From contig JANSYC010000019.1 in assembly GCA_024742605.1 (NCBI GenBank), forward strand, positions 1-60,675: 60,675 nucleotides of DNA, written 5' to 3'. The stretch comes from Alphaproteobacteria bacterium. GTDB lineage: Bacteria > Pseudomonadota > Alphaproteobacteria > Thalassobaculales > Thalassobaculaceae. Position numbers and translations under genes: made by a program. Below, piece after piece: positions 10,659-47,415 of this stretch; the stretch's first letter is position 1; each line of letters starts with the position of its first letter. The notes under the pieces are model-generated. The model saw nothing but the letters and a program-made list of their open reading frames with translations. It made no database searches and was not told the DNA's origin.

Positions 10659-11861
10659 CTATGCGCGGCCCCGGGCGTTGTGTGCCGGACGGGGGTCCGG
10701 GCCCGTATAGCGGGCTCGGGGGCGGATCACGGTGTCGGTCCGGTATTGTTCACGAACATGCGACAACCAGCCGATTGAGCGTCCGATCGCGAACAATCCG
10801 ATGGCCTGGTCGGCGGAGAGTCCAAAGGTCGCCGCGATCGCCGCGAGGCCGAAATCCAGATTGGGCTTTAGGCCGAGCACGGCCGCGCCGGCCTCGGCGA
10901 TCTGAAGCACCGGGTCGGGACAGTCGGCGAGGGCGGTGAGCACCGCGCAGGCCCTCGGATCCCCGTCCGGATAAAGCTGGTGGCCGAAGCCGGACGGATG
11001 ATCGCCCTGACGGAGCCGGTCGGCCACGAGGTCTCGACCGTCGCCCCGGCGCATGGCCTCCAATAGCATGGCGAGGGTTTTCGGGGTCTGCCCGCCATGG
11101 CGGGGACCGGACAGGGCCGCCAGCCCGGCGATCAGCGCGGCATAGGGCGAGGCGCCGGTCGAGGCGGCGACCCTGACCGCAAAGGCCGAGGCGTTTAACT
11201 CGTGGTCCGCACAACAGATCAGCGCCCGCCGGATCGGATCCCGCGCCGCCGGGACCGCCCAGGCGTGCGCCAAGGCGAGATCGATCGGGGTTTCGGTACG
11301 CAGGGGCGCCCCGCACCAGGTCCCGACCAGGATCGCCAGGATCCGGCCCGAGACTGCGTCGATCGCCGCCGGGGTTCTGGCATGGGCGGCGGGATCCGCG
11401 CGCTCGGCGACGGCCAGGGCCTCGATGGCACCGGACAGCGTCGCCGGGGTGTGGGCCGCGGGCCGATATCCGGGAAGACGGATCGGCACCGCAGCTTCTC
11501 CATCGCCCCAGAGCAGGCCGGCAACGGTTTCCACCGAGGCGACCTCCGCCAGGGACAGCGCGTCCCGGCCCCGATAGTAGAAACGCCCATCCACGATCTG
11601 AGTGATCGCGCTGTCAAGCACCGGCATGCCGAACGCCAGCGCCGCCCGGGCATCCGCGGAGCGCGCATCCGGCTCCCGGGCTGACCTAAGCCGCGCGATA
11701 TCGCCTGCGGCGTACAGGCGTTTCCGGGTTCCCGCCTGCGCACGCGAGGTCACCAGACCCCGGCTTACATAGGCGTAGAGCGTCGCGCGGGCCACATTCA
11801 GCTCGCGGGCCGCTTCGGCGGCGGTGATCCAGGCCCGCTCGGGCTCGGCGTTCACTGTCAT
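10659..11861 (-). CDS. Helix-turn-helix citrate-synthase-family protein
   Basis: A 400-residue protein with an N-terminal MerR/excisionase-type HTH (ITAAEAARELNVARATLYAY) joined to a citrate-synthase domain. Citrate-synthase signatures are present: ADHELNASAFAVR (catalytic His region), GPRHGGQ, and LDFGLAAIA (catalytic Asp). The segment that reads GHRVYKxxDPRA in E. coli citrate synthase here reads GHQLYPDGDPRA, so the Arg after GH is lost and normal citrate chemistry is uncertain. The family is known in alphaproteobacteria but its reaction is not established. It may act as a regulator sensing an acyl-CoA or oxoacid (inference). It is divergent from the MFS transporter. Confidence 0.85.
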   Translation of the reverse strand: MTVNAEPERAWITAAEAARELNVARATLYAYVSRGLVTSRAQAGTRKRLYAAGDIARLRSAREPDARSADARAALAFGMPVLDSAITQIVDGRFYYRGRDALSLAEVASVETVAGLLWGDGEAAVPIRLPGYRPAAHTPATLSGAIEALAVAERADPAAHARTPAAIDAVSGRILAILVGTWCGAPLRTETPIDLALAHAWAVPAARDPIRRALICCADHELNASAFAVRVAASTGASPYAALIAGLAALSGPRHGGQTPKTLAMLLEAMRRGDGRDLVADRLRQGDHPSGFGHQLYPDGDPRACAVLTALADCPDPVLQIAEAGAAVLGLKPNLDFGLAAIAATFGLSADQAIGLFAIGRSIGWLSHVREQYRTDTVIRPRARYTGPDPRPAHNARGRA

Positions 11862-23542: not shown

Positions 23543-24367
23543 TCAGAACGGCCAGAGATCGATGCCGAGAATACCGCCATCGGTGTCTTCTTCCCGGCTC
23601 CGTCCCTCCTGTACCAGGACATAGGCGTCCTGATACCACTCCGAGCCCGGGTAATTGTATCCGAGTACCGCCGCAGTCCGCTCCGCCTCCTGATCCAGGC
23701 CGAGAGCGGAATAGGACTCTGTAAGACGCAACAGCGCCTCGGGTACCTGATCGGTGGTATCGTACCTCTCGACCACGGTCTTGAACCGGTTGATCGCAGC
23801 GAGGTATTGGCTGCGGCCCATATACCATCGGCCGATCGACATTTCCTTGCCGGCCAGGTGATTGCGGGCCAGATCGATCTTCAGTTTGGCGTCGCGGGAA
23901 TACTTCGAATTCGGGAACCGGAGGATGACTTCCTGGAAGGCTTCCAGGGAGTCCCTGGTGAGCTGCTGGTCCCGTCCGAACGTGGAGTACGCGTATTATA
24001 TCAATCCCTTGAGATAATACGCGTAATCCACGTTCGGATTGGACGGGTTGAGCTGGATGAAACGGTCCAGCGCGTTGATCGCGTTATCGTATTGGTTCGT
24101 CTGATAGAGCGAATAGGCCGCCATCAACTGCGCCTGGGTCGCCCAGACCGAATAGGGGTGTTGGCGTTCCACCTCGTCGAACAGCGGGGCGGCCGCCTTG
24201 TAGTCGCCGTCCAGCGCCGCGCTGTAGGCTTCGTTGTAGATCTCTTCAACCGGCCGCTCGACATAGGGAGCGACTTCATCGTCCGAGCCGCAGGCCGAGA
24301 GCACGGCGAGCAATCCGGCGACAAGGCTCGCCTTGAAGGTCGATCGGCTCAGCGTTCGAGGTGTCAT
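23543..24367 (-). pseudogene. bamD: Outer membrane assembly lipoprotein BamD, interrupted by an in-frame stop
   Basis: BamD is the essential TPR lipoprotein of the BAM complex. The N-terminal part reads a signal and lipobox (AVLSACGSD), then TPR-like FDEVERQHPYSVWATQAQL and NPNVDYAYYLKGLI. The frame then hits TAA at 23996-23998. Beyond it, in the same frame, BamD continues with GRDQQLTRDSLEAFQEVILR, DAKLKIDLARNHLAGKEM and GRWYMGRSQYLAAINRF to a normal C-terminus. Homologues have Tyr-Tyr near the stop. The eight codons from the stop onwards are nearly the reverse complement of the preceding coding sequence. Either the locus is a recent mutation, it is read through, or the sequence is wrong. 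Another copy elsewhere is possible. Confidence 0.85.
23975..24038. repeat. 30-bp near-perfect inverted repeat inside bamD
   Basis: Arms 23975-24004 and 24009-24038 pair at 28 of 30 positions with a four-base loop; the mismatches are 23987/24026 and 24000/24013. The TAA stop in bamD arises as the reverse complement of bases in the Tyr-Tyr codons of the other arm. Such a long dyad inside conserved coding sequence is not expected by chance. Confidence 0.9.
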
Positions 24368-46647: not shown

Positions 46648-47415
46648 TCATTTTTTCGGCAACCGCCGGAGCACCGGTTCGATCAGTCCGGGCGACAGGG
46701 CCTGAAGCAGCCAGACGGCGGTCGCCATGGGCCAGGGGAAGGCGATCCGCGCCTTCCGTTTCGCAAGCCCTCGCTTGATGATCCGCGCCGCCCGCTCCGC
46801 TTCCATCAGAAATGGCATCGGAAACGCGTTGGCGTCGGTCATCGGCGTCCGGACGTATCCCGGACAGATAACGGACACACCCACGCCCAGGCCGTGCAGC
46901 GTGCCCGTCAGCCCTTCGCCGAACACTTTAACGGCCGCTTTCGAGGCGCAGTAGGCGGGCGCACCCGGAATGCCGCGGTAGCCGGCGAGTGAGGCGAACA
47001 TCGCGATCTGCCCGTGCCCGCGCTCGGACAGGGTCGGGATGATCGGGAGGACCGTGTTCATCACACCGCCCAGGTTCACATCAAACAGACGCCGGACCTG
47101 CTCTTCCGGCTCTGCGCCCGACAGGCCGGATGTGCCGCCGGAGATCCCGGCATTGGCGATGACGAGATCGAGCGGCCGGTTCGCATCCGATCCCACCACC
47201 CAGCGCCGCATGGCTTCGATATCGGTGACATCGACGATCTCCGTATGAACCGCGGCGCCGGCCGCCCGACAGGTCGCCGCAACGGTCTCCAGCCTATTCC
47301 GATCCCGTCCGCCCAGAAACAGGGTCACACCGGGATCGGAATAGGCCTCTGCAACGGCCGCACCCAACCCGCTGGAAGCTCCGGAAATCAGGATCGCGCG
47401 CGGCTGGGTCGTCAT
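46648..47415 (-). CDS. Short-chain dehydrogenase/reductase family oxidoreductase
   Basis: A 255-residue SDR of the classical type: cofactor loop SGASSGLGAAVA, NAGISGG, catalytic Ser in MFASLAGYRG and Tyr/Lys in YCASKAAVK. GGRDRNRLE suggests NADP preference. The C-terminus has a hydrophobic stretch (WPMATAVWLLQALSPGLI), which may associate with membrane. Substrate unknown. It is inserted on the opposite strand between mltG and yicC. Confidence 0.88.
   Translation of the reverse strand: MTTQPRAILISGASSGLGAAVAEAYSDPGVTLFLGGRDRNRLETVAATCRAAGAAVHTEIVDVTDIEAMRRWVVGSDANRPLDLVIANAGISGGTSGLSGAEPEEQVRRLFDVNLGGVMNTVLPIIPTLSERGHGQIAMFASLAGYRGIPGAPAYCASKAAVKVFGEGLTGTLHGLGVGVSVICPGYVRTPMTDANAFPMPFLMEAERAARIIKRGLAKRKARIAFPWPMATAVWLLQALSPGLIEPVLRRLPKK

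Follow-up and report, generated by a model that had tools for sequence, protein, structure and literature searches.

An in-frame stop codon in bamD of an alphaproteobacterium lies in a hairpin probably created by fold-back template switching

The bamD gene of an alphaproteobacterium that has Thalassobaculum and Nisaea among its nearest named relatives is interrupted by an in-frame stop codon that sits in one arm of a long, tight inverted repeat, and this arm is a near-exact reverse complement of normal bamD sequence lying immediately upstream. We are highly confident that fold-back copying produced the tract, wherever that copying took place, in cells or in vitro. On the evidence of the sequence, we give a little better than an even chance to a two-switch quasi-palindrome event that, at a very recent date, overwrote some 30 nt of bamD in the sequenced population or strain.

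Results

The window, by which we mean the whole stretch of 60,675 nucleotides that was analysed, is contig C113 of a 4.47-Mb draft genome in 187 contigs. The bamD gene is encoded on its minus strand (24367-23543) and adjoins recN and ligA. The PF13525 (YfiO) profile matches the whole gene when the stop is read through (E 3e-55, 188 bits, profile positions 3-200 of 203), which places it in the BamD family. Translation reveals a single internal stop in the bamD frame, a TAA at 23998-23996 inside the profile match, so that the gene as it stands is a disrupted bamD; both before and after the TAA the frame remains open, in agreement with an earlier note on this DNA, which had stated that BamD resumes in the same frame after the stop. 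The features of the gene and of the repeat are listed below.

23999..24367, minus strand: upstream part of bamD, with signal peptide, lipoprotein motif LSAC and first TPR repeats (translation and PF13525); 123 codons, provided that the ATG at 24367 is the start
23996..23998, minus strand: premature in-frame TAA (translation and profile search)
23543..23995, minus strand: downstream part of bamD, in the same frame as the upstream part and running to the normal end
24009..24038, minus strand: source arm, reading TCCGAACGTGGATTACGCGTATTATCTCAA and encoding ..NPNVDYAYYLK..; normal, and in agreement with relatives
24005..24008, minus strand: hairpin loop, GGGA, 4 nt
23975..24004, minus strand: copied arm, reading TTGATATAATACGCGTACTCCACGTTCGGA; reverse complement of the source arm at 28 of 30 positions, with 30 nt in place of 33 normal nt
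23969..24044, no strand assigned: whole inverted repeat, 36-nt arms at 89%

The earlier note had described a 30-bp inverted repeat around the stop, and this description stands: the two arms match, ungapped, at 28 of 30 positions, with the TAA inside, and the internal mismatches fall at 24000 (opposite 24013) and 23987 (opposite 24026). The repeat can be extended to 36-nt arms (23969-24004 and 24009-24044) at the cost of two more mismatches. Folding of the transcript strand gave an energy of -53.2 kcal/mol (z = -10.4). The hairpin score at bamD was 24, and no other hairpin scored above 15 in a 1.02-Mb sample of the 4.47-Mb genome, which rules out such hairpins as a genome-wide property. It is extremely improbable that point mutations produced the tract by chance, or that a mobile or regulatory palindrome, such as a REP-like element or a structured RNA, was inserted. 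The probability of at least 28 matches in 30 is approximately 3e-15 at one alignment; against an insertion, the length change is -3 nt and the sequence is found nowhere else in the genome, while the Rfam search for structured RNA returned sub-threshold animal microRNA models only, which fit any long hairpin.

Smaller inverted repeats occur elsewhere. The second strongest hairpin in the window is an inverted repeat with perfect 16-nt arms that lie 23 nt apart (47292-47307 and 47331-47346), and contig C3 (L224) carries two perfect inverted repeats of 14-15 nt within 1.3 kb, near 10850 and 12110, which account for two of the four hairpins above threshold in the whole 1.02-Mb sample.

Comparison with relatives, which the earlier note had proposed as a check, establishes the direction of the change: the reading frame is intact in all 30 of the other BamD homologues aligned, and none of the 80 homologous loci where the segment is recognisable has a stop there. 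The closest comparison is with a sister species of the same genus (G001), whose sequence is also present in L034, a metagenome-assembled Rhodospirillaceae genome. Here the sister species reads KGL-SYYERIVDV-GRDQ and the window KGL-I*YAYSTF-GRDQ, so that nine codons are replaced by eight; both the loss of one codon and the un-BamD-like character of YAYSTFG had been pointed out from the sequence of the window by itself. The block in the window aligns poorly to the homologous DNA of the sister species, and matches instead the reverse complement of the source arm, which lies 4 nt upstream of it. The exact center of the hairpin is occupied in the sister species by CTCAA-GGGG-TTGAG, a fold-back whose loop is 4 nt long; among the 90 homologous loci surveyed, this fold-back (CTCAAGGGGTTGAG) is restricted to the same-genus sequence, of which the data hold two copies. 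At the far boundary of the block, the tetranucleotide TCGG is common to the window and the sister sequence. The earlier preference for a template switch or a fold-back artefact over a point mutation is thus borne out both by the match of the block to the reverse complement of adjacent upstream bamD and by the fold-back primer already present in the sister species.

These observations suggest the following course of events. A strand synthesised in the gene-sense direction would have folded back at CTCAA-GGGx-TTGAG; its 3' end would then have primed on its own upstream sequence and copied some 20-25 nt of reverse complement, with the shared TCGG as the point of return to the normal template. The outcome would be the replacement of 33 nt by 30 nt, with the import of an in-frame TAA. 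Together, fold-back, copying and return would account for the tract and its boundaries as well as for the shortening by exactly one codon.

The copy is not exact, as two of its 30 positions differ from the source arm. Had the copy been exact, it would read TTG AGA TAA TAC GCG TAA TCC ACG TTC and contain two stops in frame. The window departs from this, in gene sense, by T for G at 24000 and by C for A at 23987; both are transversions, and the one at 23987 removes the second of these stops. We would expect a fresh event to give an exact copy, but do not make exactness a strict requirement, because it can be lost through errors in copying or by mutation afterwards. Both transversions could stem from error-prone copying, from mutation after the event or from errors in sequencing. 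Drift after the event that was long enough to produce two changes within 30-60 nt would, however, be expected to have marked the rest of bamD too, and no such mark was seen.

Simple Nei-Gojobori counts relative to the sister species give an omega of 0.007 for the last 88 codons upstream of the lesion and of 0.052 for the 144 codons that follow it; the neighboring genes give 0.061 (recN) and 0.054 (ligA). dN/dS is low before and after the stop alike, as it is in recN and ligA, which indicates that the lesion is either very recent or present in the assembly only, and rules out an old pseudogene. By these counts, normal purifying selection acted on bamD up to a very recent time, or continues to do so.

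Taken literally, the gene would yield a fragment of approximately 123 codons that lacks the C-terminal TPR region, a truncated lipoprotein whose allele would be null or near-null. In E. coli, the C-terminal TPR region of BamD helps to bind the signal that client proteins carry (PMC10945584). BamD is an essential protein of the alphaproteobacterium Caulobacter (PMC3359395), and its loss in E. coli can be bypassed by mutations in bamA or rcsF (PMC12421809). A second bamD, for which the earlier note had suggested searching the genome, was not found in the 4.47-Mb draft assembly. The native BamA (contig C69), considered as a compensating partner, is ordinary apart from two mild changes at conserved columns.

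Contig C65 (L194, 5321 bases) carries a further dxr-rseP-bamA operon, whose identity to the native operon on C69 is 36-55%. Its low identity and the 5.3-kb size of the contig make it most likely a contaminant, and its BamA was discounted as a rescue copy; tetranucleotide use does not set C65 apart. The presence of this foreign-looking contig indicates that the genome is probably a metagenome bin.

We consider it very unlikely that the allele works as it is, with the stop read through or hopped over, or with the two halves acting as a split protein. The exact resumption of the frame, the low omega after the stop, the position of the replaced stretch at a loop of variable length among solved BamDs and the two in-frame GGA codons that flank the TAA are all consistent with a working product. 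However, a very recent lesion would equally give a low omega, none of the 43 tRNAs found is an ochre suppressor, no relative shares the state, and the nearest usual start codon downstream of the stop is an ATG at 23842, 50 codons away. The narrower proposal, in which ribosomes would pass the GGA-flanked stop within the hairpin by read-through or hopping and would go on producing BamD in slightly altered form, is more improbable still.

Discussion

The same fold-back copying could have occurred in vitro, during end repair or fill-in or during amplification, or in assembly, with the consensus taken from it at a thinly covered spot while the cells have an intact bamD. We treat this as a serious possibility, if one that falls short of even. 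It would explain how a gene that is essential in Caulobacter and under normal purifying selection comes to contain a stop; the inexact copy (2/30) and the draft status of a genome that is probably a metagenome bin point the same way, and each of these observations counts against a real allele. Palindrome-centered multi-nucleotide artefacts are, moreover, known from enzymatic fragmentation (PMC6941819). Such artefacts, however, lie mostly near read ends and appear as read-level variants, whereas the change in bamD is joined on both sides and forms part of the consensus in the middle of a 60-kb contig. The absence of any similar hairpin from the 1.02 Mb scanned, together with the colinearity of the neighborhood with the sister genome over 15 kb, indicates that the assembly is not generally prone to such changes. 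On balance we lean slightly towards a real, recent allele, and we infer from the assembled sequence that the event would have occurred in cells, that its product would be the majority allele and that it would impair bamD function there.

Quasi-palindrome template switching is well established (PMC7202029; PMC8794818; PMC8604942), and the present tract is a new and unusually legible case of this known mechanism, in a gene that rarely tolerates such a change, rather than a new kind of event. As in the quasi-palindrome mutations of E. coli (the thyA hotspot and the lacZ QP reporters; PMC7202029), one arm has been copied onto the other to give a more perfect repeat, by a multi-base change with a small change in length. 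It differs from these in the length of the tract (~30 nt), in the weakness of the starting repeat beyond the 5-bp fold-back, in affecting a normally essential gene, and in being known from an assembly rather than from laboratory selection. Short template switches inferred from phylogeny, in rRNA hairpins (PMC8794818) and yeast coding genes (PMC8604942), likewise form a hairpin in one event by reverse-complement copying, and 4-nt loops are enriched at such changes (PMC8794818); by contrast, the bamD case lies in a bacterial protein gene and its outcome is a stop codon. The artefacts of enzymatically fragmented libraries resemble it in being multi-nucleotide changes centered on a palindrome.

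If the change is an artefact, it would provide a useful signature of false pseudogenes in draft genomes. If it is real, it would show cleanly, in nature, how a single slip of replication can overwrite some 30 bases and knock out a gene essential to related bacteria, and the fold-back that primed it can still be seen in the sister species; one would then have to ask by what route outer-membrane proteins are assembled in such cells.
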